Shown here: piece after piece, positions 8,916 to 28,507 of the stretch
Position numbering within the stretch: the first letter of the stretch is position 1
Layout: each line of letters opens with the position of its first letter
IMG/VR virus record: IMGVR_UViG_3300036846_000159
Coordinates: 1 to 41,787 of that record
Length of the DNA stretch: 41,787 bases
Direction: 5' to 3' (one strand)
DNA from: a virus
The notes under the pieces: generated by a model
Seen by the model: only the letters and a program-made list of their open reading frames with translations
Told to the model about the DNA's origin: nothing
Databases searched by the model: none
Program-made: the position numbers and the translations under genes

Positions 8916-8916
8916 C

Positions 8917-9105: not shown

Positions 9106-9109
9106 CCGC

Positions 9110-10296: not shown

Positions 10297-10313
10297 CCAA
10301 GAAGGAGAAGTTC

Positions 10314-10655: not shown

Positions 10656-10679
10656 CCACCACCTCCAGAGGAGGGAACC

Positions 10680-10907
10680 ATGATCCAGTTCGCGATTGGA
10701 CTACTGTGGCTGCTGATCGGCGTCATCATCGTCTGCGCCGTGATCTACCTGGTGTTCTATGTGCTCGACAGCGTGATGGGCGTCCCGATCCCGGAGCGCG
10801 TCAAGCAGGCGATCTGGCTGATCGTGCTCATCCTGGTGTTGATTAGTTTGCTGACGCTGATCGCGGGAGGCGGCGTCGGCAGCATGCACTTTCCAAAGCT
10901 CGGCTGA
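10680..10907 (+). CDS. two-helix membrane protein, holin candidate
   Basis: 75 residues, RBS GGAGGG before ATG 10680. Two hydrophobic segments, about residues 4-29 and 43-64, are separated by a short loop carrying charged residues (PIPERVKQ). Size, two-helix topology and position shortly after the amidase fit a class II holin, but no sequence family was recognised. A different small inner-membrane protein is possible. Confidence 0.6.
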   Translation: MIQFAIGLLWLLIGVIIVCAVIYLVFYVLDSVMGVPIPERVKQAIWLIVLILVLISLLTLIAGGGVGSMHFPKLG

Positions 10908-10964
10908 AAGCCAGGTCGAGCCACTGCCGCCATATCCGCCGCGCCCAGGAGATATCTGCAAAGG

Positions 10965-11063
10965 ATGTTGAGCAACGCCGATATTATTCTGCTCTTGTTC
11001 TGCCTCACGATCCTGTCGGTGTTGGCGGTGATCGTACTGGTCGCGCAGGCGATCTGGAGCTGA
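10965..11063 (+). CDS. 32-residue single-helix membrane peptide
   Basis: MLSNADIILLLFCLTILSVL... a 32-residue frame from ATG 10965 to TGA 11063 with one transmembrane segment spanning residues 6-28. AGGAG at 10947-10951 and AAGG just before the ATG could serve as ribosome site. It is the last frame before the late terminator and close to the holin candidate, so it could be an antiholin or second holin. It is very short; support is the hydrophobic pattern and position only. Confidence 0.45.
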   Translation: MLSNADIILLLFCLTILSVLAVIVLVAQAIWS

Positions 11064-11075
11064 TGGCGCGCCCAC

Positions 11076-11111
11076 AAAAAATGGCCGCCCCGGTTGCCCG
11101 GAGCGGCCATT
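11076..11111 (-). terminator. Rho-independent terminator for the minus-strand operon
   Basis: Perfect 9-bp arms AATGGCCGC (11080-11088) and GCGGCCATT (11103-11111). Read on the minus strand, the stem is followed by a run of six T (complement of 11076-11081). It lies downstream of the minus gene ending at 11169. Confidence 0.75.
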
Positions 11112-11158
11112 CCCGTGTAAAGAGGTCAGACCCCTAACACTCACTATTGGCTTACTTT

Positions 11159-11188
11159 GGCCCCGGTCTCAAGCCGGGGTCTTTTTTT
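11159..11188 (+). terminator. Rho-independent terminator of the late plus-strand operon
   Basis: An 8-bp stem (GGCCCCGG with CCGGGGTC, one G-T pair; 11159-11166 and 11174-11181) is followed by seven T (11182-11188). The loop contains the stop codon of the converging minus gene (11169-11171). Confidence 0.85.
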
Positions 11189-11621
11189 GTGCCTCGCGGA
11201 TCGCGTCGAGCGCGGCCCGGCCGGTCAGTGGCATCTTTTTCAGATCGCCCGCTGCCTTTGCCTTCATCTTCGCAATCCGGCCCTGCGCCTTTTTGCGCTT
11301 GGTGTCGGCCTGTTCCTTCATGATCTGCTCGGCGACCGGATCGATCGTCTTGCGTTGCAGGAAGGTCGGGATCGCCAGATCATCGTCCGGGATTTTGAAG
11401 TCCTCAGTCGATGGTTGCCAGTCTTGTAACCGTCGATCGGCGCCGATGGCGTCGATCTGCTTGGCGAGATCTAGAACCGGCGGCAGCGTGACCTGAGAAG
11501 CCTTCTTTTCCATTCTCGCCTTTTGCCGCTCAAGCTTGTCGATCGCGTTCACCGCTCGCTTGAGGCGGGACTTCCACCGCTTGATCTTTTCGCAGACAAG
11601 AGTGTATTGTGACGTCGTCAT
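11169..11621 (-). CDS. hypothetical charged coiled-coil protein
   Basis: 150 residues. The frame is open to 11669, but the ATG at 11621 (MTTSQYTLVCEKIKRW) has GGAGA seven bases upstream and is chosen. The protein is rich in Lys and Arg with coiled-coil segments (KSRLKRAVNAIDKLERQKARMEKK and a Lys-rich C-terminus), suggesting a nucleic-acid or membrane-associated protein. No family recognised. It is the last gene of the minus direction, with its own possible promoter (TATAAT near 11690). Confidence 0.6.
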   Translation of the reverse strand: MTTSQYTLVCEKIKRWKSRLKRAVNAIDKLERQKARMEKKASQVTLPPVLDLAKQIDAIGADRRLQDWQPSTEDFKIPDDDLAIPTFLQRKTIDPVAEQIMKEQADTKRKKAQGRIAKMKAKAAGDLKKMPLTGRAALDAIREAQKKTPA

Positions 11622-11684
11622 CTTCATTCTCCACATTGTCAAAGAGCCCGTCGCGCGGTGTGCAACCACCGCCGACGTGCCACC

Positions 11685-11690
11685 ATTATA
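11685..11690 (-). promoter_or_regulatory. candidate -10 box for the 11621 minus gene
   Basis: A perfect TATAAT on the minus strand about 65 bases upstream of the start codon at 11621, just after a terminator that insulates the gene from upstream transcription. No convincing -35 box is seen 16-18 bases away. Confidence 0.35.
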
Positions 11691-11779
11691 GCAGATCGCG
11701 CGCTCGCCTGCTGGTTGAGTGAACCGAAATCGGGTTGAGCGCGAGAACGCGCACTGAAATCATTCACGAACAAAATTCA

Positions 11780-11810
11780 AAAAACCATGAAAAGTTACTT
11801 TTCCGGTTTT
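11780..11810. repeat. AT-rich imperfect dyad
   Basis: GAAAAGT-T-ACTTTTC (11789-11803) is a perfect 7-bp dyad around one base, extended by outer AAAAACC/GGTTTTT arms with a small internal bulge. It lies in the gap between two minus genes, next to the terminator at 11824-11863. It could be a protein-binding site or an RNA hairpin; there is no clue to its partner. Confidence 0.5.
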
Positions 11811-11823
11811 TGATACAACCGAC

Positions 11824-11863
11824 AAAAAAGCGGCGCCAGGAAAAGGATTAAACCCGGCGCCGC
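11824..11863 (-). terminator. Rho-independent terminator, minus strand
   Basis: Perfect 8-bp arms GCGGCGCC (11830-11837) and GGCGCCGC (11856-11863) with an 18-base loop. On the minus strand the stem runs into six T (complement of 11824-11829). It ends the operon whose last gene stops at 11919. Confidence 0.75.
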
Positions 11864-11918
11864 CTTCCTCGATGAGCAACCCATGGGAAGCATAAGCCGC
11901 CCATCAAGCCGATGACCC

Positions 11919-12182
11919 CTAGAGTGCCACGACCTCCAAGGTGAATGCCGTCAGCGGCCTGTTGGGCCGACCGTCGGCGCGCAATGGCCGGGCCTTCGGC
12001 GTCCGGTGAGCGAACGTCAGGGCCTCCTCCATCGACTTGAACGTCATGGCCTCGGCAACGTCGTTTGTGAAGACGGCATCGCCGCGACCGTCGAACGCCT
12101 CGGGATCGTAGGCCTTGAGGTATTCGCCAGCAATCAGCTCGGGGCCCGAGACCGGCCCATAGGCCATAATCGTCCAGCTCAT
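11919..12182 (-). CDS. small conserved-type phage protein
   Basis: 87 residues from the ATG at 12182 (MSWTIMAYGPVSGPEL), chosen because it overlaps the upstream stop by ATGA; the longer frame reaches 12245. Features such as YLKAYDPEAFDG..G, AMTFKSMEEALTFAH and the terminal RADGRPNRPLTAFTLEV recur in small proteins of Rhizobiales prophages of unknown function. The fold is probably small alpha/beta. Confidence 0.65.
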   Translation of the reverse strand: MSWTIMAYGPVSGPELIAGEYLKAYDPEAFDGRGDAVFTNDVAEAMTFKSMEEALTFAHRTPKARPLRADGRPNRPLTAFTLEVVAL

Positions 12183-12586
12183 CGCTTGCACCTCCACATC
12201 TGGCGCCCATGCAAGTGATAGCTGTGCTTGCCCTTGCCCTGGCACACATCTGGCTCTGGATCGGCCGCAGCCTGTACCTGGGGTTCAGGCGCAGGATCCG
12301 GGACAATCCTCTCAGTGACCACCAGACGCGGACTGTTGGCCATACTGGCCATTGGGATCACGGTCACATTCGCCAGCTTGTTGCCGGTCGCAGGATCGTA
12401 CATTTCGCCTTCCCGCGGAAAGTCGGTCGGGAAGCTGTTGCGGTCCTGCTCGGCCCGCCACATGCCGTAGTCGAGCAGCTTGGCGGCGAGCTGCGCCGCC
12501 TCCTGGGTCGTCATGATGTGCGGCTCCTCGGCTGCCCATGCCGAGGGCACCAGGATGAACATCAATAAGATTGCAACGACCTTCAC
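12179..12586 (-). CDS. secreted/periplasmic hypothetical protein
   Basis: 135 residues with GTG start at 12586, preceded by a strong GGGAGGGG site. The N-terminus MKVVAILLMFILVPSAWA followed by AEE is a clear signal peptide with an Ala-X-Ala-type cleavage site. The mature part is acidic then Pro-rich and ends with a Cys/His-containing basic tail (CQGKGKHSYHLHGRQMWRCKR). It is exported if expressed. Being in the same operon as the repressor, it may be made in the lysogen. No family recognised. Confidence 0.65.
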   Translation of the reverse strand: MKVVAILLMFILVPSAWAAEEPHIMTTQEAAQLAAKLLDYGMWRAEQDRNSFPTDFPREGEMYDPATGNKLANVTVIPMASMANSPRLVVTERIVPDPAPEPQVQAAADPEPDVCQGKGKHSYHLHGRQMWRCKR

Positions 12587-12657
12587 TTGCCCCTCCCTGC
12601 TTCAGCCAAACAAAAACAAAAAGCAGCAGTCAGCGCGATAACGATCATTATGCTCAC
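12583..12657 (-). CDS. 24-residue hydrophobic peptide coupled to both neighbours
   Basis: A GTG-initiated frame at 12657 reads VSIMIVIALTAAFCFCLAEA then GRGK and stops at 12583. Its GTG overlaps the stop of the upstream gene (GTGA), and its own TGA overlaps the GTG start of the downstream gene (GTGA again). That double overlap fills the gap between two genes exactly, which argues for real translation. One transmembrane segment is predicted by eye, with two Cys. It may be a small membrane peptide or act only to couple translation. Confidence 0.5.
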   Translation of the reverse strand: MSIMIVIALTAAFCFCLAEAGRGK

Positions 12658-13046
12658 GGCTTCTTTCCCCCCATGATCATCTGCTGAAAGTTGTTGCAGG
12701 CAGCGCGGATGTCGGCCGCGACTGAATTGGTGTGCTCGATCTCGGCAGCAACGTGGCTACCCTTCTCGACGATCGCCTGCGCCATCTCGGCGATCACCTT
12801 CAGGTCGTTGTCGCACTCGCGCAGGCATTGCTCCAGGCGCTGGATGCGTTCCTTGACGACCTTGCCCATCTCCTCGACCGCCTTGGCGGCCTCCTCATAC
12901 TGCTTCTGCACAGCCTCGGCCGTGAGGCGGCCGATGTCTTCGGGCTTGGGTGGATATGGCACTGGCCTGTCGAGCGGATGCACGGTCGACACGGTCGCCA
13001 CGGTCGACAAATCGGCAGTCAGTTGATCCAATATCTTCCTGTTCAT
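12654..13046 (-). CDS. hypothetical coiled-coil protein
   Basis: 130 residues from ATG 13046. Residues 1-40 are extended with Pro and Thr. Residues about 42-120 are a long coiled coil (EEAAKAVEEMGKVVKERIQ, then IAEMAQAIVEKGSHVAAEI) with a C-terminal FQQMIMGGKKP. No catalytic motif. The start lies 14 bases after a hairpin and AAGGA site (13059-13079), the same arrangement as before the DUF932 gene. Confidence 0.6.
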   Translation of the reverse strand: MNRKILDQLTADLSTVATVSTVHPLDRPVPYPPKPEDIGRLTAEAVQKQYEEAAKAVEEMGKVVKERIQRLEQCLRECDNDLKVIAEMAQAIVEKGSHVAAEIEHTNSVAADIRAACNNFQQMIMGGKKP

Positions 13047-13058
13047 GGTTGGGTTCCT

Positions 13059-13079
13059 TTAGAGGCGGGATGCCTCTAA
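13059..13079 (-). promoter_or_regulatory. leader hairpin upstream of the 13046 gene
   Basis: Perfect 8-bp arms TTAGAGGC and GCCTCTAA with a 5-base loop. In the minus-strand RNA the hairpin ends directly at the AAGGAAC ribosome site, so folding may control access to it. The DUF932 gene has the same layout at 14250-14265. Confidence 0.5.
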
Positions 13080-13082
13080 CGC

Positions 13083-13119
13083 CCTACGGCGGGTAGGTCT
13101 TGCGACCGCCCGCCGTAGG
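13083..13119 (-). repeat. 11-bp inverted repeat between DUF932 and 13046 gene
   Basis: CCTACGGCGGG (13083-13093) and CCCGCCGTAGG (13109-13119) form a strong GC-rich stem with a 15-base loop, about 20 bases after the DUF932 stop. No T-run follows on either strand, so it is more likely an attenuator or mRNA-stabilising stem than a classical terminator. Confidence 0.6.
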
Positions 13120-13140
13120 TAGCGATGTTCAGGAAAAGGC

Positions 13141-14232
13141 TTAGGCGGCTTCGGCGAGGGCCCTCCACTCCGACTTGGGCAGCTCGACCACCTGGGCGCC
13201 GATCCGCTCCAGCTCAGTGGCGCGGTCGTAGCTGTCGATGTCGGCCGACAACCGGGTCACGGCGTTGTAGAGCCCGAACCGCGACAGCTCGCCGCCCTCG
13301 ATCAGGTGGCGCAGCACGCCATGGCCCTCGATCTCGGTCAGGCCGAGGCGCTTGCTGGTGCGGGTGACGACCTGGACGACGTCGCCGTCGATCCTGTCGG
13401 CCTGCGTGCCCTCGACCTTATCAACCAGAGCATTAAACTGGACTTGATCGAACACGCCCTTGACGACGTCGCGCATCTTGCTCCACAGCGCGGCATTGTT
13501 CAGGCGCTTGGTCTTGTCCGACAGCATCGCGTACAGCTCGCCCTCGGCGATCGAGTGCTTGCCACCGAGGTGAGCCTGCCGCATCGAACGCTCGCCGAAG
13601 AACGACAGGTTCGAGCAGAACCCGTCATAGATGCCGCCCCGGATCGACAGCGCGCCGAGGCCGACTTCGCTGTTGGAGATGGTGATCGCCGGGGACACGG
13701 TGCGGACGATGGTGTGGCCACCATCACCGAACCGGGCACCGGTCTTGGCCAGCTCACGGCACACCTTGGCATCGACTGCCTTGATGTAGAGCCGCGTGTC
13801 AGTGATGTCGCACGAGGCAATGTCGAGGCCCAGGTCACGGATCACCGGCAGGATCGCCTCTGCGGCGTCCTCGTTTTCCATGTCAGTGGAAAACTTGTCG
13901 GAGACGAAGGCGCGGGCAACCTTGTCGAGCGTGCGAACCATGCGCGGCGCCGGGAAGCGTTCGAACCAGCGATTGACGTTAGTGGCGAGCAGGTCAGGCG
14001 CCTGTTGCCGCATCCGGTCGTAGTACTTCGAGGGGATCTCGGCGTGGGCGCCGATCTGGTTATGCGCGATGTTATTGATTTTGAAATCGCGATGACCACC
14101 AACAACAAGAAATGGCTCATTGCCAACCGCCTGCATTTCCATGTTCTTGGTCGAGGCGACCAGGTCCGACTTGGCACTGGCGCGGCGCTCGATCTCGATC
14201 GCGAGTTCAGAGAGGGTTTTACCGGTCTTCAT
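13141..14232 (-). CDS. DUF932 family phage/plasmid protein
   Basis: 363 residues. The sequence fits the DUF932 phage/plasmid-like family: an N-terminal VVGGHRDFKINNIAHNQIGAH region, then DKVARAFVSDKFSTDMEN (compare 'RAFLSDRYR.LDN'), DTRLYIKAVDAKVCREL, and GHTIVRTVSPAITISNSEVG followed by LSIRGGIYDGFCSNL. The C-terminus carries an SRFGLYNAVTRLSADIDSYDRATELE helix. The molecular function of the family is not established; members are common on plasmids and phages. It is transcribed away from the repressor gene, with a palindromic operator-like site (14294-14312) and a leader hairpin just upstream. Confidence 0.8.
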   Translation of the reverse strand: MKTGKTLSELAIEIERRASAKSDLVASTKNMEMQAVGNEPFLVVGGHRDFKINNIAHNQIGAHAEIPSKYYDRMRQQAPDLLATNVNRWFERFPAPRMVRTLDKVARAFVSDKFSTDMENEDAAEAILPVIRDLGLDIASCDITDTRLYIKAVDAKVCRELAKTGARFGDGGHTIVRTVSPAITISNSEVGLGALSIRGGIYDGFCSNLSFFGERSMRQAHLGGKHSIAEGELYAMLSDKTKRLNNAALWSKMRDVVKGVFDQVQFNALVDKVEGTQADRIDGDVVQVVTRTSKRLGLTEIEGHGVLRHLIEGGELSRFGLYNAVTRLSADIDSYDRATELERIGAQVVELPKSEWRALAEAA

Positions 14233-14314: not shown

Positions 14315-14704
14315 CTAACCAGCGATCAGTTCGGCCAGCGTCACCATTGCGCGCGCTACGGCGCGGTCCTTGATGTCGGCATAGGCGCGCAACAGCCGCA
14401 TCGTGGCTGCGTCGTGGCCCGATAACAGCGTGTCAACCTGCTCTTTGCGCACCGGACTGCCGTCGCCATAGAAGTAGCTGATCGGCACATCCAGCGCTTC
14501 GGCGATCCGTTGCAGCCGCGACATGGTGATGCGGTTGATGGCATTCTCGTATTTCTGCACCTGCTGAAACGTGACGCCGATGGCTTCGCCCAGTTCGTCC
14601 TGCGATATGTTGCACTCGGCACGACGGCTTCGCACGCGCTGGCCAATCGTGACATCGGCAGCGGTTTTCGTGCGAGGGTTAATTTTTCGTTTCGCTTTCA
14701 TCAT
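14315..14704 (-). CDS. XRE-family repressor (CI-like)
   Basis: 129 residues. Residues about 18-75 are a helix-turn-helix: IGQRVRSRRAECNISQDELG, AIGVTFQQVQKYENAINRI, then SRLQRIAEALDVPISYFYG. The remaining 50 residues are a short helical dimerisation tail (LLRAYADIKDRAVARAMVTLAE). This size and style are typical of alphaproteobacterial phage and plasmid regulators that lack a peptidase domain, so induction by RecA-stimulated self-cleavage is not expected. It is the third gene of an operon starting at a palindromic operator. It is the likeliest lysogeny repressor, with the YdaS-like protein as Cro-type partner. Confidence 0.8.
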   Translation of the reverse strand: MMKAKRKINPRTKTAADVTIGQRVRSRRAECNISQDELGEAIGVTFQQVQKYENAINRITMSRLQRIAEALDVPISYFYGDGSPVRKEQVDTLLSGHDAATMRLLRAYADIKDRAVARAMVTLAELIAG

Positions 14705-15150
14705 TTGATCAATCCTTCTTTTTTGGCGTGCTGGTAACCCGCTTCAGCTTCCTCCCGGTTGCGATAGGTGCCATCACCCTGAATGCCGACAAGGATCGAC
14801 GGCGGCATCGGCAACGGTTGATGGGTCGGCCTCCACAAGTGCAGGACGTTCGGATGATTGTTGACGTACTCGGATTGCGGCGGGTGATACTGCACCACGC
14901 ATTCGTGCAGCTCCCAAAATTCATTCTTGACCCAGCACATTTCATCCCAGTTCGGAACGCGGTTGGTGGTCGAGACCGAAACGTGCTCCCACGGGTATTC
15001 CTGATCTCCTGCACTGGCGAGGATCGTCAGCGCCGTTCCCTTCGGTCCCCAGACCCTGAATGCGCCGTTCGGACCGTCGCGGCTGTCACTACGGAATTGG
15101 CCGTGCCTAATCCGGCCATGCTCCATTTTTTCAGACAAGGTCTTTTTCAT
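14701..15150 (-). CDS. DUF7694-like phage protein
   Basis: 149 residues. The conserved-looking core is RHGQFRSDSRDGPNGAFRV, then WDEMCWVKNEFWELHECVVQ, HPPQSEYVNNHPNVLHLWRP and a C-terminal 'REEAEAGYQHAKKEGLIK' helix. The W-x2-M-x2-V-K-x3-W pattern matches a widespread small phage domain I recall as DUF7694, function unknown. ATGA overlaps join it to both neighbours, the YdaS-like gene upstream and the repressor downstream. Confidence 0.6.
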   Translation of the reverse strand: MKKTLSEKMEHGRIRHGQFRSDSRDGPNGAFRVWGPKGTALTILASAGDQEYPWEHVSVSTTNRVPNWDEMCWVKNEFWELHECVVQYHPPQSEYVNNHPNVLHLWRPTHQPLPMPPSILVGIQGDGTYRNREEAEAGYQHAKKEGLIK

Positions 15151-15362
15151 CGCCGGTTCGATCGGTACAGCTCCGGCCGCAACTTCTCGCGCGGAATGCC
15201 GGTCGCCTCCTCGATCGGCACAATCCAGTGTGCCGGGATCGTCTTCCAGGATTGAATATTCTGATAGTTAATGCCGATCGCCCGTCCCAGGGCCCGCACC
15301 CCGCCAGCCTTCTCGCAAGCAACGTCGATGATCTCGTCGCGCTCCGCTTTACTCACCTTCAT
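15147..15362 (-). CDS. YdaS/Cro-like helix-turn-helix protein
   Basis: 71 residues from ATG 15362 (MKVSKAERDEIIDVACEKAG), chosen over 15389 because GGAGG lies seven bases upstream. The sequence has the YdaS_antitoxin/Cro-like pattern: AGGVRALGRAIGINYQNIQSW, then IPAHWIVPIEEATGIPREKLRPELY. In many proteobacterial phages this protein is the Cro-type regulator. It is first in the minus operon and faces the early operon across a shared palindrome, so it likely binds that palindrome or the matching sites. Confidence 0.75.
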   Translation of the reverse strand: MKVSKAERDEIIDVACEKAGGVRALGRAIGINYQNIQSWKTIPAHWIVPIEEATGIPREKLRPELYRSNRR

Positions 15363-15455
15363 GGGGAAACCTCCAATACTGACAGACATTTATTGTTGAC
15401 ATTACGAGATTGTCAACCACAGATATCAAATCTCTCGACAACCCTGGGGTAGCCA
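15363..15455. promoter_or_regulatory. divergent early promoter region with shared operator
   Basis: GTTGACA (15395-15401) and TGTCAAC (15411-15417) form a perfect dyad with a 9-base centre. Each arm contains TTGACA, a consensus -35 box, on its own strand. On the minus strand AATAAA lies 16 bases on (15394-15389); on the plus strand only a weak -10 (around 15419-15426) is visible. A protein on the dyad would block both promoters. The centre geometry TGACA-N9-TGTCA recurs at 14294 and 23879. Confidence 0.7.
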
Positions 15456-16763: not shown

Positions 16764-17203
16764 GGGACCGGGTTTCACCACACCATTTCAAACCAAGACT
16801 GTTTGGTTTTCCCGTCTGCACTTTTTGCGGACAAATGGAAAATTCAGCGGTTCACATCGGTTCACCCAGATACAACGCAGAACACTCGGCCCTCGCCAGG
16901 AACACCGATCCAGACACTTCGCACGAGGCTGCAGAAAAACTCGATACCACCGCACTGGAAGCTAAGGTCTACCGGGTGCTGCGGCTCTACGGTCCTCCCA
17001 GGGGCAAGCCGATGTGCGTGGTCGAGATATGGCACCACCTGCCCGAACTGTCGGTCGATACCATCAGTCCACGCATGTGTCAGATGGTGAAGAAGGGGTT
17101 TATCATCCTGCTCGGTAAGGAGCCGCGCGGCAACCGCCACAACAGGATCGTCAGCCAGCAGGTCTACGCCATCGCACCAAGACAAATGGAGCTGTTCAAG
17201 TGA
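16760..17203 (+). CDS. winged-helix-like DNA-binding protein
   Basis: 147 residues, ATGA overlap with the upstream gene. After an N-terminal region with a CTFC knuckle, ARNTDPDTSHEAAEK is the start signature of a common phage winged-helix family. Then VYRVLRLYGP, CVVEIWHHLPELSVDTISPR (recognition helix region) and RGNRHNRIVSQQVYAI (wing) follow. Likely a regulator or replication accessory factor. The short CxxC and N-terminal extension could be a metal-bound module. Confidence 0.6.
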   Translation: MRDRVSPHHFKPRLFGFPVCTFCGQMENSAVHIGSPRYNAEHSALARNTDPDTSHEAAEKLDTTALEAKVYRVLRLYGPPRGKPMCVVEIWHHLPELSVDTISPRMCQMVKKGFIILLGKEPRGNRHNRIVSQQVYAIAPRQMELFK

Positions 17204-18240
17204 ACATCGTCAAGCAGGCCGTCGAGGCCTACGTCAAAGCCAACCAGAAAGACATGGGCCCGCACGATCGCACGAGAACCGTCGGCGGCAGCGAGATTGG
17301 CCAGTGCGAGCGCAAGGTCTGGGCCCACAAAATGGAAGGGTTGAAGTGGGGGGTTGAGCGCGATCCCGACTACGTCGAAAACTGGGGCGCACAATGGCGC
17401 GGCCAAATCATTGAGAAGCATTTTTTGGTGCCAGCCATCAAAGCCATTTATCCCCACACCATTGGTCTCGGCGAGGATCAGCAAACCCTGGTAGATGGCC
17501 TGATCTCGGCGACACCCGACTGCTTCGTGCTCGATCGGCGCAGTGAATTTTTGATCGAATTTAAAAGCATCGATCCGCGGGTGCGCCTGCAGGAGCCGAA
17601 GCCCGAGCATGTCTACCAGGTGCAGGTGCAGATGGGAATTTTGCATGCCCGCACCAAGCGGCGGCCACGCTATGCCATCCTGGCCTATGTCGATGCGTCA
17701 TTCTTAAACGAGATTACTGAATTTCAAATCGACTACGATCCTGACGTCTACCAACGCGCCAAAATTCGTGCCGGAAAAATTCTCGGCGCGTTGACGATGC
17801 ACGAATTAAAGCCCGAGGGTTGGATTGCGGGCGGCAAGGAGTGCGAGTATTGCGCCTTCACGCGAGCCTGTGGCATTGCCCGCACGGCCGTCCCTGCCGA
17901 CGACGCCATCGAGCCCGCCGATCCACAGCTGGTCGCCGAGATAAGCGACATGGCAAAGCAATTGAAGGTCGTCGAGGCGCTGCTGTCATCCTATGAGGAA
18001 GACAAGCGCGAACTGCAGAACGACATCAAGGAGCGGATGCGGGAGAAGGGACTGAAGCGCGTGGTTGGTGAGGGCGTGTCAATCACCTGGACTGCCGTCA
18101 AGGGCCGCGACAGTTGGGACATGCTGCCGTTGCTGGGTGCGGCGTCGGACGCTGGTGTCGAAGTTGAAACATTCAAGAAACCCGGCGAGCCCGGCGATCG
18201 GCTAACCGTGACGCTGAAGAAAAGCGCGGCAGCGGCATGA
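17200..18240 (+). CDS. Cas4/RecB-like PD-(D/E)XK exonuclease with Fe-S-type cysteines
   Basis: 346 residues, GTG start with GTGA overlap. The nuclease core shows SATPDCFV (D107), LIEFKSI (E120, K122) and a QxxxY-like region HVYQVQVQMG. Cys36 in GQCERKVW pairs with CEYCAFTRAC (C215, C218, C224): four Cys in the arrangement that holds a 4Fe-4S cluster in Cas4 and AddB-type nucleases. The C-terminal 110 residues form a coiled coil plus a small beta domain (VKGRDSWDMLPLLG). It probably makes 3' single strands for recombination or replication. It is not near any CRISPR array. Confidence 0.8.
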   Translation: MNIVKQAVEAYVKANQKDMGPHDRTRTVGGSEIGQCERKVWAHKMEGLKWGVERDPDYVENWGAQWRGQIIEKHFLVPAIKAIYPHTIGLGEDQQTLVDGLISATPDCFVLDRRSEFLIEFKSIDPRVRLQEPKPEHVYQVQVQMGILHARTKRRPRYAILAYVDASFLNEITEFQIDYDPDVYQRAKIRAGKILGALTMHELKPEGWIAGGKECEYCAFTRACGIARTAVPADDAIEPADPQLVAEISDMAKQLKVVEALLSSYEEDKRELQNDIKERMREKGLKRVVGEGVSITWTAVKGRDSWDMLPLLGAASDAGVEVETFKKPGEPGDRLTVTLKKSAAAA

Positions 18241-18449
18241 TCCCTCCGATTACACTGGCAGAAAAATTACACTGCGTCGCCCGTGAGCTGGCGATGCGCC
18301 GTCGCGTCTATCCGCGTCTAGTGTTCCAAGGCAAGATGAAGGAGGAGAAGGCAGACCATGAAACTGAAGTGATGCAGGCAATTGTTGAAGATTACAGAAA
18401 GCAATTAACCTCAACCGTGAAACAGGAGACTTTAAAATGGGAAAGATGA
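18237..18449 (+). CDS. small conserved-type phage protein
   Basis: 70 residues, ATGA overlap with the nuclease gene. LAEKLHCVARELAMRRRVYPRLV followed by a KADHETEVMQAIVEDYRK helix resembles short proteins found in many alphaproteobacterial phages, function unknown. It overlaps the next start by 13 bases. Confidence 0.65.
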   Translation: MIPPITLAEKLHCVARELAMRRRVYPRLVFQGKMKEEKADHETEVMQAIVEDYRKQLTSTVKQETLKWER

Positions 18450-19243
18450 AAGAAGCGACTACAACGACGACGACTTCGCAGGCGGTGGCGACGCAAGAGA
18501 GCAATCCCTGGCTCGACTACGGCAATTCTGCCACCGGCACCCGCATCGTCGGCCAGCTGCTGAAATTTTCAAAGTTCGGGCAGTGGACGGCAGGCCAGGA
18601 CAACATCGAGATCCCGATGGGCACCAGGATGATCGCACACGCGATCGAGATTTATGTCGGTTGGATCAAGTGGCAGGACAACAAGCCAGTCGAGCAGCTG
18701 ATGCACAAGCTGGGCGACGGCATCAAACCCCCGTCGCGTGCCGAACTCGGCGACACCGACAGTGCAGCCTGGGACATCGGCATCGACGATCGGCCGCGGG
18801 ATCCCTGGCAATTTTCCAACTACCTTGTCCTGATGGACGATGATGGTGGGCTTTACACGTTTGCGACCGCGTCAAAGGGCGGCATCCAGGCCGTCGGCTC
18901 ACTCGCCAAGGCCTACGGCTTGCGGATGCGTCAACACCCTAACGAGTTGCCCGTGGTGGAGCTGGGCTGGGACAGCTACGACCACCCCAACAAGGCCTAT
19001 GGTGAGATCCGCTATCCGGTTTTCGAGATCACTAGCTGGGTCGATCGCGACGCAATCGATGCGGTGCTGCTCGCTAGCCAGGGCAGTGGCGGTGGTGAGC
19101 CGGACGAGCCTGACGACGAGCCGATGCCGCCGACCAAGCCACAACCGACCAAGCCACAACCGACCCGGCCGGAGCCGACCCGGCCGCAGCCTGCGGCCCA
19201 GCAGGCCCACACCCAGGCACCGAACCGCAAGGCGCGGTTCTAG
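18437..19243 (+). CDS. putative ssDNA-binding or recombination partner protein
   Basis: 268 residues. After a Thr-rich start, residues about 22-195 form a mixed domain (NPWLDYGNSATGTRIVGQLL, MGTRMIAHAIEIYVGWIKW, YPVFEITSWV). Residues about 215-268 are a Pro-rich linker with KPQPT/RPEPT repeats and a basic end NRKARF, the long flexible tail with terminal Phe seen in single-strand-binding proteins. It follows a Cas4-like exonuclease and precedes the primase-helicase, as expected for an ssDNA-binding factor. This is inference; I recognise no named family. Confidence 0.5.
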   Translation: MGKMKEATTTTTTSQAVATQESNPWLDYGNSATGTRIVGQLLKFSKFGQWTAGQDNIEIPMGTRMIAHAIEIYVGWIKWQDNKPVEQLMHKLGDGIKPPSRAELGDTDSAAWDIGIDDRPRDPWQFSNYLVLMDDDGGLYTFATASKGGIQAVGSLAKAYGLRMRQHPNELPVVELGWDSYDHPNKAYGEIRYPVFEITSWVDRDAIDAVLLASQGSGGGEPDEPDDEPMPPTKPQPTKPQPTRPEPTRPQPAAQQAHTQAPNRKARF

Positions 19244-19258
19244 CCATCAACAGGAGCA

Positions 19259-19292
19259 CGCCGCCCCATCTCGACAACGGGCTGGGGCGGCG
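19259..19292 (+). repeat. 9-bp inverted repeat
   Basis: CGCCGCCCC (19259-19267) and GGGGCGGCG (19284-19292) flank a 16-base loop, 15 bases after the stop of the upstream gene. No T-run follows; it may end transcription weakly or be part of the cis-acting region. Confidence 0.6.
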
Positions 19293-19348
19293 TAATTGTG
19301 TGTGCCGCCCAAATCAATCGGCCGCCCACTGCAGAAGCAGAAGACGGC

Positions 19349-19384
19349 CGAATAGGAACGCCAGAACAGCTGTGATCCTATTCG
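19349..19384. repeat. nested dyad CGAATAGGA / TCCTATTCG with inner ACAGCTGT
   Basis: Arms 19349-19357 and 19376-19384 are perfectly complementary; the 18-base interior contains the palindrome ACAGCTGT (19366-19373). No promoter function is apparent. Confidence 0.65.
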
Positions 19385-19414
19385 CCCCGCTAATGTAGCG
19401 CAAGTGGCCCAACC

Positions 19415-19430
19415 TGTTTCACGTGAAACA
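19415..19430. other. parS: parS site (host ParB-binding consensus)
   Basis: TGTTTCACGTGAAACA is a perfect 16-bp palindrome identical to the bacterial chromosomal parS consensus bound by ParB. It lies 18 bases before the primase-helicase start codon. No ParA or ParB homologue is encoded in the window, so the binding protein would have to be the host's. The chance of one given 16-mer in 41.8 kb of random sequence is about 1 in 100,000. Confidence 0.85.
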
Positions 19431-19448
19431 AGAAGGCCTTGACCTCAA

Positions 19449-21644
19449 ATGTTAGACCAGCAGCAGGATGTCACCACCGACACCATCATCCTAACCACAT
19501 TCAGGGACGTCACCGGCAAGCCGCACCGGCTCGCGACCACGTTGCCGCAACTGGCCGACCGCATCCGGCAGACCGTGGCGCCGAGCAAGGCGGCACTGCC
19601 GCTACTCAAGATGGCGGTGTTCGGTGGGCAGCGGAGTGCAGGCGGCAGCCTGCGCAACAATGCCAATGTCCGGTTCGTCACCGGCATCGAGGTCGAGCAC
19701 GATGCGGGCATCGTGAGTTTTCAGAATGCCCTGGACGTGATGGATGCCGCCGACGTCAGGTGCGTGCTCTACACCACACCCTCGCACCGCCCCGGCGCCG
19801 AGCGCTGGCGGATCCTGGCGCCGCTGTCGCGGCAGCACGAGCCAGCCTATCGCGAGAAGGCGGTGGCGCGGCTGAACGGGCTGTTCAATGGCTACCTGGC
19901 GCCAGAGAGTTTCACCCTGTCGCAGGCCTACTACTACGGCCACGTCGAGGGCAGCAGCTTCGAATGCCACGGCCTCGGCGGCCGGTTCCTGGACCTGTGC
20001 GACGAGTACTATGCCGGTTCGATCGACAAGGAGGGCCACAGCATAATAGGCGGCCAAATAGGCGGGAAGGGTATGGGTGCGCCGCAACATGAAGGTGACC
20101 GATCCTACCCTTCCGCACGAAAAGAGAACGACCCCGGCCCAGTCGACGTCGGCAAGGTCCGCGCTGCGCTCGACGTCGTCAGCCCCGACTGCTCCTACGA
20201 GGTCTGGCTGAAGGTGGCAGGCGCGCTGCACCACGCGCTCGGCGAGGCTGGGTTCACCCTATTCGACCAGTGGTCTGCGGGCGCGCCACGGCTGTATCGG
20301 GAGAAGGAGAGCGCCGCCCACTGGCGTGGCGCCCGCACCCTTCGCGACATCACGATCGGCAGCCTGTACTGGCTGGCATCGGAGGCCGACCCGTCCTGGT
20401 CGGCACGCTACGAGATGATCAAGACCTATGATGACCCCCTCGGCAGCTCTTCATTGGCTCAAACAGTGAACGACAATGTGGTGGCGTTTAAGGGCCCCAC
20501 CAGGGAGCCTAGGGCGGCCGCTGGTGAGCCTCCGCTGTACTGGCTGGATATGCAGCCCTGGACTGGAACGCCGAAGCCAGTGCGGTCCTGGGCGATCCTG
20601 GACCGCACGCCACTGGGCGAGGCGGGGCTATTCTCCGGCGAGGGCGGCACGGGCAAGTCGATCATCGAGCTGATGAAGGACGTGGCGCATTGCTGCGCCA
20701 AGAGCTGGCTGGGCTCGATGCCAGAGCCGGGGGGTGCATTCTACCTGGGCGCCGAGGATAGCGTCGACGAGCTGCACATCCGCCTGCATGACATCGCGGC
20801 ACACTACCAGGTGACGTTTCAGGAGATGATCGATGGCGGGCTGAAAATCCTACCGTTCCTGGGCAAGGATGCAGTGTTGTGTGCCGCGGTCGGCAAGGGC
20901 GGCCGGATCGAGCCGACGCCGCTCTATGGGCAAATCCTGGAGGCGGCAGGCGACTTAAAACCGAAGAACATCTCGATCGACACACTGAGCCACGTGTTTG
21001 CCGGAAACGAGATCGACCGCATCCAGGTCACGGCCTTCAAGATGTACATGCAGCATCTTGCCGCCGTCGCACAGGGCTCAGTCACCATCCTGTCACACCC
21101 GTCACTGGCGGGGATGGCGAGCGGCACTGGCATTTCCGGGTCGACGGCCTGGCACAATGCATTCCGGTTCCGGCACTACTTGACGTCGATCAAGGCGCCA
21201 GAGGAGGTCAGCACGAATGATGAGGCGTCCAACAGCAGTGCCAGCCTGCGCGAGATCCAATTCCTAAAGAACCAGTATGGCGCGCTCGGGACGTCGATCA
21301 AGCTGCGCTACGAGGCTGGCGTATTCGTGCCAGTCGACACCCTGACGGGCCCAGGCAAGCTGATCGCCAGGGCACGGGCCCAGGAGGTGTTCCTGGCGCT
21401 CTTGGCGAGGTTCAAGCAGCAGGGGCGCAATGTCAGCGACAAGCACCGGTCGCCGACCCATGCCCCTGCGGCCTTCGCAGGCGAGCCCGAGGCGGTCAAG
21501 GCCAGGGTGACGAAGGCAGACTTCGGGGTGGCGATGCGGGAGCTGTTTGCCGCCGGGAAAATCAGGGTCGAACGCTACGGCCGGAGCGATCGGGATTTTA
21601 GCAGAATTGTCGTCGCAGACGATGCTGCGGTGCGGGAGAATTAG
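19449..21644 (+). CDS. primase-helicase fusion (AEP-type primase, PriCT-2, RepA-like AAA helicase)
   Basis: 731 residues. Residues about 1-200 resemble an archaeo-eukaryotic primase: FVTGIEVEHDAG (acidic residues E81, E83), TTPSHRPGAERWRILAPL (H113), then a YYYGHVEG strand. Residues about 235-315 fit a PriCT-2 primase C-terminal domain (KVRAALDVVSPDCSYEVWLK, HALGEAGFTLFDQWS). Residues about 385-620 are a RepA-like (AAA_25) helicase with Walker A GEGGTGKS (397-404), YLGAEDSVDEL and Walker B ISIDTLS (D511). The last 80 residues look like a winged-helix tail. It would prime and unwind at the phage origin; no DNA polymerase gene is visible, so the host's is used. parS lies upstream and TGTCTAC repeats downstream. 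Confidence 0.8.
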   Translation: MLDQQQDVTTDTIILTTFRDVTGKPHRLATTLPQLADRIRQTVAPSKAALPLLKMAVFGGQRSAGGSLRNNANVRFVTGIEVEHDAGIVSFQNALDVMDAADVRCVLYTTPSHRPGAERWRILAPLSRQHEPAYREKAVARLNGLFNGYLAPESFTLSQAYYYGHVEGSSFECHGLGGRFLDLCDEYYAGSIDKEGHSIIGGQIGGKGMGAPQHEGDRSYPSARKENDPGPVDVGKVRAALDVVSPDCSYEVWLKVAGALHHALGEAGFTLFDQWSAGAPRLYREKESAAHWRGARTLRDITIGSLYWLASEADPSWSARYEMIKTYDDPLGSSSLAQTVNDNVVAFKGPTREPRAAAGEPPLYWLDMQPWTGTPKPVRSWAILDRTPLGEAGLFSGEGGTGKSIIELMKDVAHCCAKSWLGSMPEPGGAFYLGAEDSVDELHIRLHDIAAHYQVTFQEMIDGGLKILPFLGKDAVLCAAVGKGGRIEPTPLYGQILEAAGDLKPKNISIDTLSHVFAGNEIDRIQVTAFKMYMQHLAAVAQGSVTILSHPSLAGMASGTGISGSTAWHNAFRFRHYLTSIKAPEEVSTNDEASNSSASLREIQFLKNQYGALGTSIKLRYEAGVFVPVDTLTGPGKLIARARAQEVFLALLARFKQQGRNVSDKHRSPTHAPAAFAGEPEAVKARVTKADFGVAMRELFAAGKIRVERYGRSDRDFSRIVVADDAAVREN

Positions 21645-22410: not shown

Positions 22411-22452
22411 CAGATTAGCTAATGCAGATTAGCTAATACTCAATCGATTGAG
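22411..22452. repeat. palindromic repeat cluster at recombinase 3' end, candidate recombination site
   Basis: CAGATTAGCTAAT occurs twice (22411-22423, 22425-22437) one base apart; each copy holds the palindrome ATTAGCTAAT. Two bases after the second comes CTCAATCGATTGAG (22439-22452), a perfect 14-bp palindrome inside the end of the recombinase gene. Serine resolvases act at clusters of short inverted binding sites like this. Confidence 0.55.
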
Positions 22453-23088
22453 CAGGCGGGAAGCCGTCATCGGCGCCCAGGCGCCACCGCGCTCGGTCTT
22501 GACGCCACAGCCGTTGAGAAAAACTGCGAGGCGGCGGACTGATGCTCTTTGGCCTTCGCTCGTCATGAACCCGGTGACGATCGGGCGAAGCGTCTCGGCG
22601 AACGCAACGGCGCGATCGGCTTGCATCTTGGCGCCATTGGGTGAGCCCAGCTTGACGCCGCGGGCCTTGGCGGCCGCCAGCGCCACCTTGGTGCGCGACG
22701 AGATCATGCGGCGCTCCTGCTCGGCGAGCGCAGCGTAGATGTGGAGCATGAATGGATCGGCATTGGCGCCCAACTCGGCGACAACGAACGGTACACGCTG
22801 CGCCATCAAGCCTGCGATGAAGGCGACGTCACGCGACAGCCGATCAAGCTTGGCGACGACGACGGCGCAGCCTGCAGTCTTGGCAGCCTCTAGTGCGGAG
22901 GCCAGCTTGGGTCGCGTCGTCAGCGCGTCGCTTCCCTTACCGGTCTCAACTTCAATGAAGGTCGCCGAAAGGGTGATGCCCTCGGCGGCGCAGAAGCGCA
23001 GGATGGCATCCTGTTGCGCCTCAAGGCCAAGGCCAGAGCGGCCTTGGGCCTGGGTGGAAACGCGGATGTAGGCGATTGCGGTTTTCAT
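22429..23088 (-). CDS. serine recombinase, resolvase/invertase size
   Basis: 219 residues from ATG 23088; a longer frame to 23115 runs into the upstream gene. The N-terminal catalytic domain is intact: AYIRVSTQ with nucleophile S11, KLDRLSRD (R83, R86), and [19 protein letters not shown] (E helix region). A C-terminal segment ([15 protein letters not shown]) looks like a helix-turn-helix. At this length it belongs with resolvases and invertases, not the large serine integrases. It could resolve multimers of a circular prophage, invert DNA, or integrate at a short site. It is probably transcribed with the 23093-23311 gene. Confidence 0.85.
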
Positions 23089-23092
23089 TGGT

Positions 23093-23311
23093 TTACTTCC
23101 CCTTGGTCCAGTCAACCCAGATCACCCCAGCCGGGCTGACCTTGATGAATACGCCGCGGGGAGCATCAGCTCCGCTGCCTGCGGTGACCCACTGGCCACG
23201 CCGGAGCTGGAGCGGATCAGCAGTCCAAATGTCGATCGCCTCGGGCGAGCGCGTCACCAGGCGGCACACCAACGAGATGATCGACCTGATCCAAAATTTG
23301 ATCGTCTTCAT
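23093..23311 (-). CDS. small hypothetical protein upstream of recombinase
   Basis: 72 residues, RBS AAAAGGAAAA before ATG 23311. A basic N-terminal helix is followed by [21 protein letters not shown] and [18 protein letters not shown], an SH3-like beta pattern seen in small proteobacterial phage proteins. Function unknown. It heads the two-gene minus unit that ends with the recombinase and faces the packaging operon. Confidence 0.65.
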
Positions 23312-24510: not shown

Positions 24511-24794
24511 CCATGGGCATCTACGATCAATTCTTACCGCCACCGCGACCACCGGGAGTGCCGCCGGAGGCACGCAAGGAGATTAGGCATGAGGAACGTC
24601 AAGAAGGTCGTGACGGGGAAGAAGCGGGGCAAGCCGGGGGAGAAGTGGGGCAAGCCGAAGTCACGGGCGTTGCCGGGGTACGCGCCGATCGAGAGCCCGC
24701 CGAAGCTGCACCGCAAAAGGCGGCGTTTGACCGTGTCGCCTACCAGCGTGAGTACATGAGGCGGCGCCGGGCTGCGGCCAGGGCAAAGGGCTGA
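24507..24794 (+). CDS. hypothetical protein with basic C-terminal helix
   Basis: 95 residues, GTG at 24507 overlapping the previous stop. MGIYDQFLPPPRPPG opens the chain; the middle (Glu/Gly/Arg-rich, about 25-65) is odd; the end FDRVAYQREYMRRRRAAARA is a motif found in many phage proteins. The middle overlaps another frame (24589-24759) with a better ribosome site and more protein-like sequence. The stop overlaps the terL start (TGATG). Confidence 0.45.
   Translation: MTMGIYDQFLPPPRPPGVPPEARKEIRHEERQEGRDGEEAGQAGGEVGQAEVTGVAGVRADREPAEAAPQKAAFDRVAYQREYMRRRRAAARAKG
24589..24759 (+). CDS. 56-residue basic protein in overlapping frame
   Basis: ATG 24589 is preceded by AAGGAGA at 24577-24583, one of the best ribosome sites in the region. 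The product MRNVKKVVTGKKRGKPGEKW and following PKSRALPGYAPIESPPKLHR is basic and looks more like a real protein than the other frame. It lies wholly within 24507-24794, so one DNA stretch may code for two proteins. Function unknown, possibly nucleic-acid binding. Confidence 0.45.
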   Translation: MRNVKKVVTGKKRGKPGEKWGKPKSRALPGYAPIESPPKLHRKRRRLTVSPTSVST

Positions 24795-26179
24795 TGGTGA
24801 TGGGTGGAGTGGCGCAGGACGACGAGATTGTCCTGCCGCACCGTGGCTGGCTGCCGCGGGCTCATCAGATGAAGCTGTGGCAGTACTTGCAGGATGGTGG
24901 CGAGCGTGCGATTGCGGTCTGGCACCGCCGTGCGGGCAAGGACGAGATTTGCCTGCACCATGCAGCGTGTGCGGCACTGAAGCGGCAGGGCAATTACTGG
25001 CACTGCCTGCCGGAGTTTCTGCAGGGCAGAAAAGCAATCTGGACCTCGATCAATGCGCACACTGGGCGGCGAAGGATTGACGAGGCGTTTCCGCCTTACA
25101 TTCGTGAAAGCACCAATGATAACGAGATGTTTATACGTTTCGTTAATGGTTCGACCTGGCAGATTATTGGCTCTGATCGTTACGATGCGACACTGGGTTC
25201 TGGTGTTGCGGGTATCACTTACTCCGAGTGGGCATTAGCAAACCCGAGCGCCTGGGCCTATCACCGGCCGATCCTGGAGGAGAACAAGGGCTGGGCGGTT
25301 TTTATTACGACGCCGCGCGGTCACAACCATGCGCATTCGATGTTTAAGCATGCGCAAGTGAGCAAGGCGTGGTTTTCTGAATTGCTGACGGCGCTCGACA
25401 CTGGTGCCTTGAGCCGTGACGAGCTGGAGGAGGCCGAGGCCGAGTACATCGCGCTGCACGGCACTGACGTCGGCCGTGCGTTGTTTCAGCAGGAGTACAT
25501 GTCGAGCTGGAATGCCGCGATCCTCGGCGCCTTTTATGCCTTTGAGATGGCGGCGGTGCGGAGCGAGGAGCGCATTGCTGAGATCGAGGCGCGGCCTGGC
25601 GTGCCGGTGCACCGGGCCTGGGATCTCGGCGTCCGCGACGACACGGCGATCTGGTGGTTTCAGAACGTCGGCTCACAGTGTTTCGTGCTCGACCACTATG
25701 CGGCCTCAGGTGTCGGGGTCGAGCACTATGCGGACGAGATCGAAGCCAGGGGCAAGCGCTATAGTTGGACGGGCGGCAACGACTACGTGCCGCACGATGC
25801 CAAGATCAAGGAGTGGGGGAGTGGCAAGACCCGCGTCGAGACCATGCAGGCGCTCGGGCTGTCGCCGATGCTGGTGCCGCTGGCGACCATTGCCGACGGC
25901 ATTCATGCGGTGCGGCAATTGCTGCCGCTGACGGTGTTTCACCCGCGCTGCGAGGAGGGTATTGGCGCACTCGAGCAGTATGCGCGCGAGTGGGACGACG
26001 ACAAGAAGGCGTTCCGGGCGAGTGCCGTCCACAACTGGACGTCCCATCCTGCGGACGCCTTTCGCTATCTTGCCCTGGCCCGGCAGAAGCCTGTTGTGAT
26101 CAAGGCCAAGGAGCCGGTACGTCGCGGCATTGTCATTCCGCCGCCACCTGAACCGCGACATGGAGGGATCCGATTGTGA
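24794..26179 (+). CDS. terL: terminase large subunit
   Basis: 461 residues. The N-terminal ATPase has HRRAGKDE (44-51; atypical Walker A with GK at 48-49) and a Walker-B-like GITYSEWA with E145. The motif-III-like VFITTPRG follows. The RNase H-type nuclease has HRAWDLGVRDD (D277), YVPHDAK (D335) and HPADAFRYLA near the C-terminus, the usual three acidic sites. It packages DNA into proheads through the portal. The ATG overlaps the upstream stop. Family and fold are clear; packaging type (pac or cos) is not. Confidence 0.92.
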   Translation: MVMGGVAQDDEIVLPHRGWLPRAHQMKLWQYLQDGGERAIAVWHRRAGKDEICLHHAACAALKRQGNYWHCLPEFLQGRKAIWTSINAHTGRRRIDEAFPPYIRESTNDNEMFIRFVNGSTWQIIGSDRYDATLGSGVAGITYSEWALANPSAWAYHRPILEENKGWAVFITTPRGHNHAHSMFKHAQVSKAWFSELLTALDTGALSRDELEEAEAEYIALHGTDVGRALFQQEYMSSWNAAILGAFYAFEMAAVRSEERIAEIEARPGVPVHRAWDLGVRDDTAIWWFQNVGSQCFVLDHYAASGVGVEHYADEIEARGKRYSWTGGNDYVPHDAKIKEWGSGKTRVETMQALGLSPMLVPLATIADGIHAVRQLLPLTVFHPRCEEGIGALEQYAREWDDDKKAFRASAVHNWTSHPADAFRYLALARQKPVVIKAKEPVRRGIVIPPPPEPRHGGIRL

Positions 26180-26200: not shown

Positions 26201-28507
26201 ATGACTGACGAGACTACCGGTCCGCCGGTCGAAGAAGACATCCGCGCCGACGACGACGAATTTAATCCGACCATCGAGCCACGCAAAGCCAGAGCGTGGC
26301 TTAATCTTTTGCAGGAGAGCGAAGACGCCTTCGAGAAGTACAACGAGCATTGCGACCTGATCGATCGGCAGTATGCTTCGCTCGACCGGCTCGCCAACAA
26401 TGTGCGTGACAAAGAATTTCAGATGTTCTGGTCGAATGCCGAGGTGTTGAAGCCATCGATCTATGCCAAGAAGCCAGTGCCGGTGGTGGTGCCGAAGTTC
26501 ATGGACCGGCGGCCGGTGTACCAGGCTGCGGCTGAAACCATGGAGCGCTGCGCAGTGGTGGCGTTCGACTTGGGTGACATCGATGAATTGATGAAGCTGG
26601 TGCGCGACGACCTGGCGCTGGTCGATCGCGGCGTTGTCTGGTGCCGCTACGAAGGCTCCGGGGACACCGACGACGACTATGAAAAGGTTTGCTACGACTT
26701 CAAGAACCGTCGGGATTTTCTGCATTCGATCTCGCGCAACTGGCGTGAGGTGACTTGGGTTGCCGCGGCGTCGTACTTGACGCGCGCGGAGGCGCGCAAG
26801 CGATTTAGAAAATTCTCCGGCGACGAATACCAGAATGCCGAATACAAGGTCGACAAGAAACTGGAGGAGGTCGGTGGCGCCGACAAGCGCGAACGGGCGA
26901 AGTTCTGGGAAATCTGGTCACTCAGCGATCGGCGGGTGTGCTGGGTGGCGCACGGCTGCGAGCTGATCCTCGACGAGGATGATCCGCACTTGAAGCTGCG
27001 CGGATTTTATCCTTGTCCGAAGCCCGCCTATGGCACCTGCCAGCGTGGCAGCCTGGTCCCGGTCCCTGACGTGCTGCAGTACAAGGACCAGCTGGAAGAG
27101 ATCAACTTGCTGACGGCCAAAATCCACGCCCTGTCGGACGCCATCGAGGCCAAGGGTTTTTACCCGGCGGGTGGTTCAGAATTGGCGGACGCGGTGCAGG
27201 CTGCGCTGTCGATCAAGACGCCGGGCCGGGTGCTGGTGCCGATCTCGAATTGGGCAGTGTTTGGCGGCAGTAAGGACGTCATCGTCTGGCTGCCGATCGA
27301 CATGATTGCGCAGACCATCACCGGCCTGGTGGCGCTCCGCAAGCAGATCATCGACGACATCTACCAGATCATGGGGTTGTCGGACATTATGCGCGGCTCG
27401 ACCGATCCGCAGGAGACCTTGGGCGCCCAGGAACTGAAGACGGAGTTCGGCTCGGTCCGGATCCGCGACAAGCAGCAGGAGCTGGTGCGGCTGGCGCGCG
27501 ACCTGGTCGAGGTCACCACTGAAATCATCACTGAAAAATTTGATGACGTCACCATTGTCAAGATGTCGCAGACCCAACTGCCGACCAATGCCATGGTGGA
27601 GCAAAAGATCAACGACATGACGGCCCAGGTGCAGCAGCAGCTGGGACAGATCCAACAAGTTGCGGCATCGCCGCAAGGTCAGCAGATAGTGCAGTCCAAT
27701 CCGCAGCAGGCCCAGCAGATGCTGCAGCAGGCGCAACAGCAAATCCAGCAGCAGCAGGATGACATCGGTAGGCTCCAGCAGCAGCCGACCATCAACCAGG
27801 TGCTGCGTTTTCTCAAGGATCAGCGCGCCAAGGCCTTCGTGCTCGACATCGAAACTGACTCAACGATCGTGCCGAACGAGCAGGCCGAGCAGAAGGGCCG
27901 TTCTGATTTTATCGGCATGCTGGCGCAGCTGATGCCGCAATTGTCGCAGATGGTCACGGCTGAACCGAAGACTGCAGAATTTTGCGGCGAGCTGCTGAAG
28001 TTTGCCGTTGCACCATACCGCGCTGGCCGCGCGCTCGGTGGCGCGATCGACGACCTGGTCGAGAAGATGAAGGCCAAGGCCAACCTGCCTCCTGGCGACG
28101 ACCCGACCACGGCAACCAACAAGACTGCAGTGCAGATCGAGCAGATGAAGCTGCAGTCGGAAGACAAGAACAACGCTGCGAAGCTCCAGCTGCAGCAGCA
28201 GGAGTTGCAGCAGAAGGACGCCCATAAGAAACTTGAGCTACAGAACGAGCGCGCGATCGCGCTGGCGCAGCTGCAGTCAAGGCAGCAGGAGACTGCTGCA
28301 GATAGCCAAGTAGCAAACCAGAAAGCGATGGAGTCACGGGAGACGCACCAGGCTTCGCTGATTAAGGGTGAGCAGGATATGCAACTGGCGCGGCAGAAGG
28401 GCGACCTGGCTATTCAGCAGGCTAACCAAAGGGCGCAAGAGGCCGCCAATCGGCAGCAGGAGCGCCAGGCGGCACAACAATTCAAAATGACGAGGCCACT
28501 GCCATGA
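26201..28507 (+). CDS. portal protein
   Basis: 768 residues, RBS GGAG seven bases before ATG 26201. Residues about 30-430 resemble P22-type portals: FEKYNEHCDLIDRQYASLDR, VLKPSIYAKKPVPVVVPKF, then a stem-like region with YKDQLEEINLLTAKIHALSD and GLSDIMRGSTDPQETLGAQE. From about 470 the chain is Gln-rich coiled coil (QQQLGQIQQVAASPQGQQIV), a barrel-like extension, ending with RQEERQAAQQFK-like helices. It forms the dodecameric DNA channel at the capsid vertex. The direct neighbour terL supports the call. Confidence 0.88.
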   Translation: MTDETTGPPVEEDIRADDDEFNPTIEPRKARAWLNLLQESEDAFEKYNEHCDLIDRQYASLDRLANNVRDKEFQMFWSNAEVLKPSIYAKKPVPVVVPKFMDRRPVYQAAAETMERCAVVAFDLGDIDELMKLVRDDLALVDRGVVWCRYEGSGDTDDDYEKVCYDFKNRRDFLHSISRNWREVTWVAAASYLTRAEARKRFRKFSGDEYQNAEYKVDKKLEEVGGADKRERAKFWEIWSLSDRRVCWVAHGCELILDEDDPHLKLRGFYPCPKPAYGTCQRGSLVPVPDVLQYKDQLEEINLLTAKIHALSDAIEAKGFYPAGGSELADAVQAALSIKTPGRVLVPISNWAVFGGSKDVIVWLPIDMIAQTITGLVALRKQIIDDIYQIMGLSDIMRGSTDPQETLGAQELKTEFGSVRIRDKQQELVRLARDLVEVTTEIITEKFDDVTIVKMSQTQLPTNAMVEQKINDMTAQVQQQLGQIQQVAASPQGQQIVQSNPQQAQQMLQQAQQQIQQQQDDIGRLQQQPTINQVLRFLKDQRAKAFVLDIETDSTIVPNEQAEQKGRSDFIGMLAQLMPQLSQMVTAEPKTAEFCGELLKFAVAPYRAGRALGGAIDDLVEKMKAKANLPPGDDPTTATNKTAVQIEQMKLQSEDKNNAAKLQLQQQELQQKDAHKKLELQNERAIALAQLQSRQQETAADSQVANQKAMESRETHQASLIKGEQDMQLARQKGDLAIQQANQRAQEAANRQQERQAAQQFKMTRPLP

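Follow-up and report, generated by a model that had tools for sequence, protein, structure and literature searches.

The window analysed here, the whole of an IMG/VR virus record and 41,787 nucleotides in length, derives from a soil phage. Its two ends share a 147-nt direct repeat (positions 1-147 against 41647-41787, 95.9% identity, one 6-nt gap) that lies within a repetitive coding stretch, which suggests that the window is a near-complete, circularly assembled genome. The features that bear on the present argument are the following.

14315-14704, minus strand: C1-type HTH repressor (PF01381, E 7e-16)
15147-15389, minus strand: YdaS/Cro-like DNA-binding protein (PF15943, E 7e-12)
17200-18240, plus strand: RecE/Cas4-like exonuclease (phrog_434, E 2.5e-21)
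18437-19243, plus strand: upstream gene, 268 aa (phrog_9528, DNA metabolism label)
19244-19448, no strand: 205-nt intergenic region with parS and three further inverted repeats
19258-19273/19278-19293, no strand: arms of inverted repeat 1
19318-19332/19337-19351, no strand: arms of inverted repeat 2
19346-19357/19376-19387, no strand: arms of inverted repeat 3
19415-19430, no strand: parS-type site TGTTTCACGTGAAACA, perfect 16-bp palindrome, exact match, unique within 3 mismatches
19431-19436, plus strand: AGAAGG, possible ribosome-binding site judged from its sequence, abutting parS and 12 nt 5' of the primase ATG
19449-21644, plus strand: primase-helicase, 731 aa, PriCT_2 and AAA_25 (PF08707, E 2e-14; PF13481, E 1.5e-16)
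22429-23115, minus strand: small serine recombinase of the resolvase/invertase type, 228 aa, candidate multimer-resolution function (PF00239, E 5e-26)
24794-26179, plus strand: large terminase subunit, used as the query for relatives (phrog_2, E 7e-23)
26201-28507, plus strand: portal protein (phrog_12082, E 2e-169)

A major head protein is also encoded in the window. The primase-helicase has distant relatives in Wolbachia phage WO and in Vibrio phages, and the nearest named relatives of the portal protein belong to Rhizobium phage RHph_I3_18 (47%) and a Bradyrhizobium phage (35%). The protein at 28560-29387 receives conflicting labels, namely endonuclease V from PHROG and a 2OG-Fe(II) oxygenase domain from Pfam.

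When both strands of the window were scanned, the palindrome at 19415-19430 was found to agree with the 16-bp palindromic parS consensus (PMC7022226) at 16 of 16 positions, and no other match within three mismatches occurs on either strand; the one other perfect 16-bp palindrome in the window is GGTCCGGCGCCGGACC at 5720-5735. The initial annotation had described an exact, perfectly palindromic host-type parS in a dyad-rich non-coding region before a replication gene, and this description is borne out in full: the site lies between the upstream gene and the primase-helicase, its last base 18 nt before the ATG of the latter, and all three further inverted repeats of the gap are located 5' of it. 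Its rarity was also rightly perceived, in that an exact copy is unlikely to arise by chance; the figure then given, 1e-5, nevertheless assumed equal base frequencies, and the actual composition (62% GC) lowers the expectation to 2.3e-6 copies in the window, with 2.1e-6 under a second-order Markov model. Folded as single-stranded DNA, the gap is more stable than 200 of 200 shuffles (z -4.4). The stretch 19258-19293, 3' of the upstream gene, forms a strong stem-loop (16-nt arms, 4-nt loop) that is terminator-like and without a T run, and an Rfam search of the window returned no match.

The absence of partition genes, likewise claimed at the outset, was confirmed by a six-frame search of the window, in which ParB_N (PF02195) was absent, and by the lack of any ParA or ParB family match among the scanned window proteins; ParA (PF13614) was also not found in a 99.9% identical contig that covers about half of the window. 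With an exact site and no ParA or ParB found, dependence on the ParB of the host, which the initial annotation had put forward, is the simplest reading. No phage integrase was found among the scanned proteins, which yielded only the 228-aa serine recombinase. Given the C1-type repressor, the YdaS/Cro-like protein, the small serine resolvase and this lack of an integrase among the proteins scanned, the gene content is compatible with an extrachromosomal temperate phage, and it is from this content that we infer both lysogeny and the extrachromosomal state.

The idea that related phages would carry the same 16-mer at the same place does not hold in its strict form. An exact copy in the same position occurs only in the contig already mentioned (L248/L002), which is 99.9% identical to the window over 14.7 kb and represents the same phage, and because of this near-identity it says little about conservation. 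Among 423 related stretches given by the terminase search, 80 were retained for analysis; these 80 loci (1.15 Mb) contain 20 sites within two mismatches of parS, against a mean of 0.15 for palindromes with permuted arms. Among whole records of the terminase family, 20 of 50 have a site within two mismatches, exactly one each and at differing places. The 14-bp core GTTTCACGTGAAAC is kept in eight records, apparently in three separate placements, where 0.003 occurrences would be expected in 1.63 Mb (a length summed by hand), and in 17 distinct sequences from relatives, chosen partly for an intact core, changes fall at the outermost, second and central positions. In several relatives (L249, L251-L260, L264, L269, L270, L275 and L314) the interval that separates the resolvase from the gene preceding the terminase contains a degenerate palindrome close to GTTTCAC[AG]TGAAAC; others have a parS-like site elsewhere, in some cases within reading frames, and many have degenerate sites or none, the two named rhizobial relatives showing no parS-like site. 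A homologous pre-primase site in the 56% relatives L316 and L319 was considered and rejected, since the motif there lies inside an ORF. Plasmid-borne relatives gave only weak matches, and a terminase scan across 84,980 genomes of bacteria and archaea brought up one distant relative only. The phage family is therefore rich in parS-like palindromes, while the exact copy at 19415-19430 does not appear to be a conserved trait.

The motif is far from confined to this family. The exact 16-mer has at least 120 matches in IMG/VR, and parS followed by the suffix NNNRRRRRR again has at least 120, against a single match in the whole collection for a control palindrome of the same composition and with the same central CACGTG; the counts come from the matches listed, so that the enrichment is a lower bound, although the ratio of parS to control somewhat overstates the total enrichment because parS flanks are purine-biased (17 of the first 120 loci recur under the suffix, which is above chance). 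A first control palindrome, TGTTCTACGTAGAACA, also with at least 120 matches, was dropped because 75 of the 120 listed came from one phage family. The 295 parS sites sampled resolve into 185 unrelated flank clusters, 66 of which (36%) are intergenic by simple ORF-based gene calls, compared with 6% of positions drawn at random from these contigs. Contigs bearing parS hold 21 further one-mismatch sites where permuted palindromes predict 0.01; contigs selected with an unrelated control palindrome have no site within two mismatches of parS. The two bases before viral parS sites are biased to A (AATGTTTCACGTGAAACATT, read from both sides), a bias that the window site does not share.

Few of these viruses appear to encode the cognate protein. 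ParB_N was detected in 4 of 100 parS-bearing viral records (three above cut-off; one of the 100 is the near-identical contig of the window phage) and ParA (AAA_31) in 1 of 50, many of the records in both counts being fragments. Contamination with host DNA was rejected as the main source of these sites, given that isolate phages carry parS, that one terminase family is matched in 22 of 50 parS-bearing records and that the flanks contain phage hallmark genes; the genes beside parS include ones for tail, terminase, lysis and replication proteins of phages and for phi29-like and microvirus proteins. One 117-kb viral contig, L088 (IMGVR_UViG_3300037518_000322), has twelve exact or one-mismatch sites over 5 kb (8906-13863) and a ParA-like ATPase.

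Among isolate and named phages, 389 of 50,697 records are matched by a 30-nt probe with parS at its centre, 273 of them at 99% identity or more, a threshold at which two control probes of the same base composition and central CACGTG match 3 and 2 records; since the set is redundant and many of its phages are related, the counts do not represent independent events. ParB_N was looked for in twelve records from very different phages and was above cut-off in Microbacterium phage Shotgun and weak in one other. The inovirus bajarodino virus 72 (L446, PQ006098.1) has five exact sites in 5.8 kb (at 712, 1182, 2767, 4108 and 5764), and Gordonia phage PatrickStar (L442) has two, separated by about 1 kb and close to the end of the genome (locus positions 1202 and 2167); ParB was found in neither. 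In the former, several copies lie directly 3' of gene ends. Lactobacillus phage Iacchus also has two exact sites, and Bacillus phage phi29 carries four one-mismatch sites (TGTTTCACGTGGAACA), against 0.008 for permuted palindromes, with ParB_N not found in it. Escherichia and Salmonella phages are missing from the 120 matches listed for the probe, a list that comes with no per-host denominators, and the Klebsiella phages listed are 85% matches. Enteric hosts have no chromosomal ParB, and this host distribution is only suggestive of a dependence on host ParB.

Taken together, the motif is in strong excess in phages that for the most part lack ParB, where it lies preferentially between genes and often occurs in several copies. 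We consider it rather probable that the site of the window phage is an orphan parS on which the host ParB is loaded, linking an extrachromosomal phage genome to the ParABS system of the host, with possible repression of the primase. Reading the site as a target of host ParB is favoured because the motif is common to unrelated phages of many hosts, enriched between genes, often present in several copies and the same as the sequence that a near-universal host protein recognises; ParB binding at the predicted site is likely, and the phage probably borrows the partition proteins of its host. Assuming a host ParB with specificity for this site, the protein would load on it as a CTP-dependent clamp and slide into the flanking DNA. 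The phage genome, most likely extrachromosomal in a lysogen or in a stalled infection, would thereby have a handle on host ParABS and SMC, and its copies would be positioned with the host origin and inherited. In Caulobacter an ectopic parS is disfavoured where it lies on the chromosome at a great distance from the native cluster (PMC5815017), which favours an unintegrated element. With the repressor, the small resolvase and no phage integrase found, this makes an extrachromosomal lysogen inherited by means of host ParABS the most economical reading. With 18 nt between parS and the start codon of the primase-helicase, the loading of ParB would probably also lower primase expression while the genome is quiescent, and a regulatory side-effect of this position is likely.

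An alternative that we regard as unlikely is that a transcription factor of phage or host uses the palindrome as its operator and controls the primase gene from there, the resemblance to parS being a coincidence. The site does stand directly 5' of the possible ribosome-binding site of the primase, and the related palindromes between the resolvase and the pre-terminase gene recur at one place with degenerate outer and central bases. However, the 12-bp core occurs only once in the window even when two mismatches are allowed, the gaps around the repressor and Cro-like genes included, other relatives have parS-core sites elsewhere, and the same 16-mer recurs in unrelated phages across many hosts, for which a single shared non-ParB regulator is unlikely.

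It is quite unlikely, in turn, that host ParB is recruited for regulation only, its spreading silencing the primase promoter or holding back development with no benefit for segregation. The distance of 18 nt to the primase ATG fits such a role, and so does the finding in Pseudomonas that promoters close by are silenced or weakened by ParB (PMC7022226); in other phages, however, parS adjoins structural, lysis and replication genes alike, so that control of a single gene is not a common theme.

A chance occurrence, or a neutral hitch-hiker from host DNA, is very unlikely. That the exact copy is not kept beyond the 99.9% identical contig speaks in its favour, but only about 2e-6 copies are expected, the motif class is strongly over-represented in phages and parS-like sites are enriched in the terminase family of the window phage itself. 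A decoy, of which the many copies made in the lytic cycle would titrate ParB or SMC away from the host chromosome and upset its segregation, would suit phages considered virulent, such as the Listeria Pecentumvirus, but is very unlikely here, where one copy per genome is found instead of the many expected and repressor genes are present. A parS of the RepABC plasmid type was rejected, its spacing being different.

Returning to the orphan parS loaded by host ParB, we believe the chances to be slightly better than even that chromosome-type sites of this kind are a widespread and repeatedly evolved phage feature, found in tailed phages, inoviruses and microviruses, temperate and virulent, which recruits host ParB and SMC for purposes beyond spore entrapment (inheritance, positioning or control of development), the window phage being one case in a lineage of alphaproteobacterial type. 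Many parS-bearing isolates, including members of Pecentumvirus and Otagovirus, are phages that we take to be virulent, so that segregation of a prophage cannot be the general explanation. parS is among the best understood of bacterial DNA signals and is used in pulling chromosomes apart; if it is present in hundreds of phages without ParB, then phages routinely exploit the segregation of the host chromosome in infection. If this is true, parS becomes a sequence clue to extrachromosomal prophages and to the type of host, and hosts without ParB should have no such phages. The idea is directly testable in the phages that have four or five sites, one of which, phi29, grows in a standard laboratory host.

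The initial annotation knew of no described phage with this strategy, and the view that it is undescribed is not supported: the site is widespread in phages, and the genome of phi29 is reported (Meijer et al., EMBO J, 2005) to be carried into the spore by Spo0J, the ParB of its host. Our search of the open-licence literature brought up no survey of such orphan sites among phages. The orphan parS is thus of a known kind, real and under-appreciated without being unique, and its breadth is the interesting part. Like the window phage, phi29 is a phage with chromosome-type parS and no ParA or ParB of its own; it differs in having several one-mismatch sites and a sporulating Firmicute host, whereas the window phage has one exact site near its primase and is closest, among named phages, to ones that infect rhizobia. 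The chromosomal parS of B. subtilis, TGTTNCACGTGAAACA (PMC7022226), is the identical 16-bp sequence, the window copy being distinguished by its location on a phage genome, as a single site without linked parAB. The prophage-plasmids with parABS, mycobacteriophage RedRock and its relatives (PMC7157519), resemble the window phage, as does P1, in the partition of an extrachromosomal prophage, a state that would apply here by inference; unlike it, they have their own ParA and ParB, neither of which was found in the window phage, and non-chromosomal parS repeats. SGI1 has parS-like sites and no partition proteins of its own, and is stabilised by the parABS of an IncC plasmid (PMC10954446). It is an integrative mobilizable element whose two parS-like copies fit the ParB of the helper plasmid and not a chromosomal ParB, but it shares with the reading favoured here the use by a mobile element of the ParAB of another replicon.
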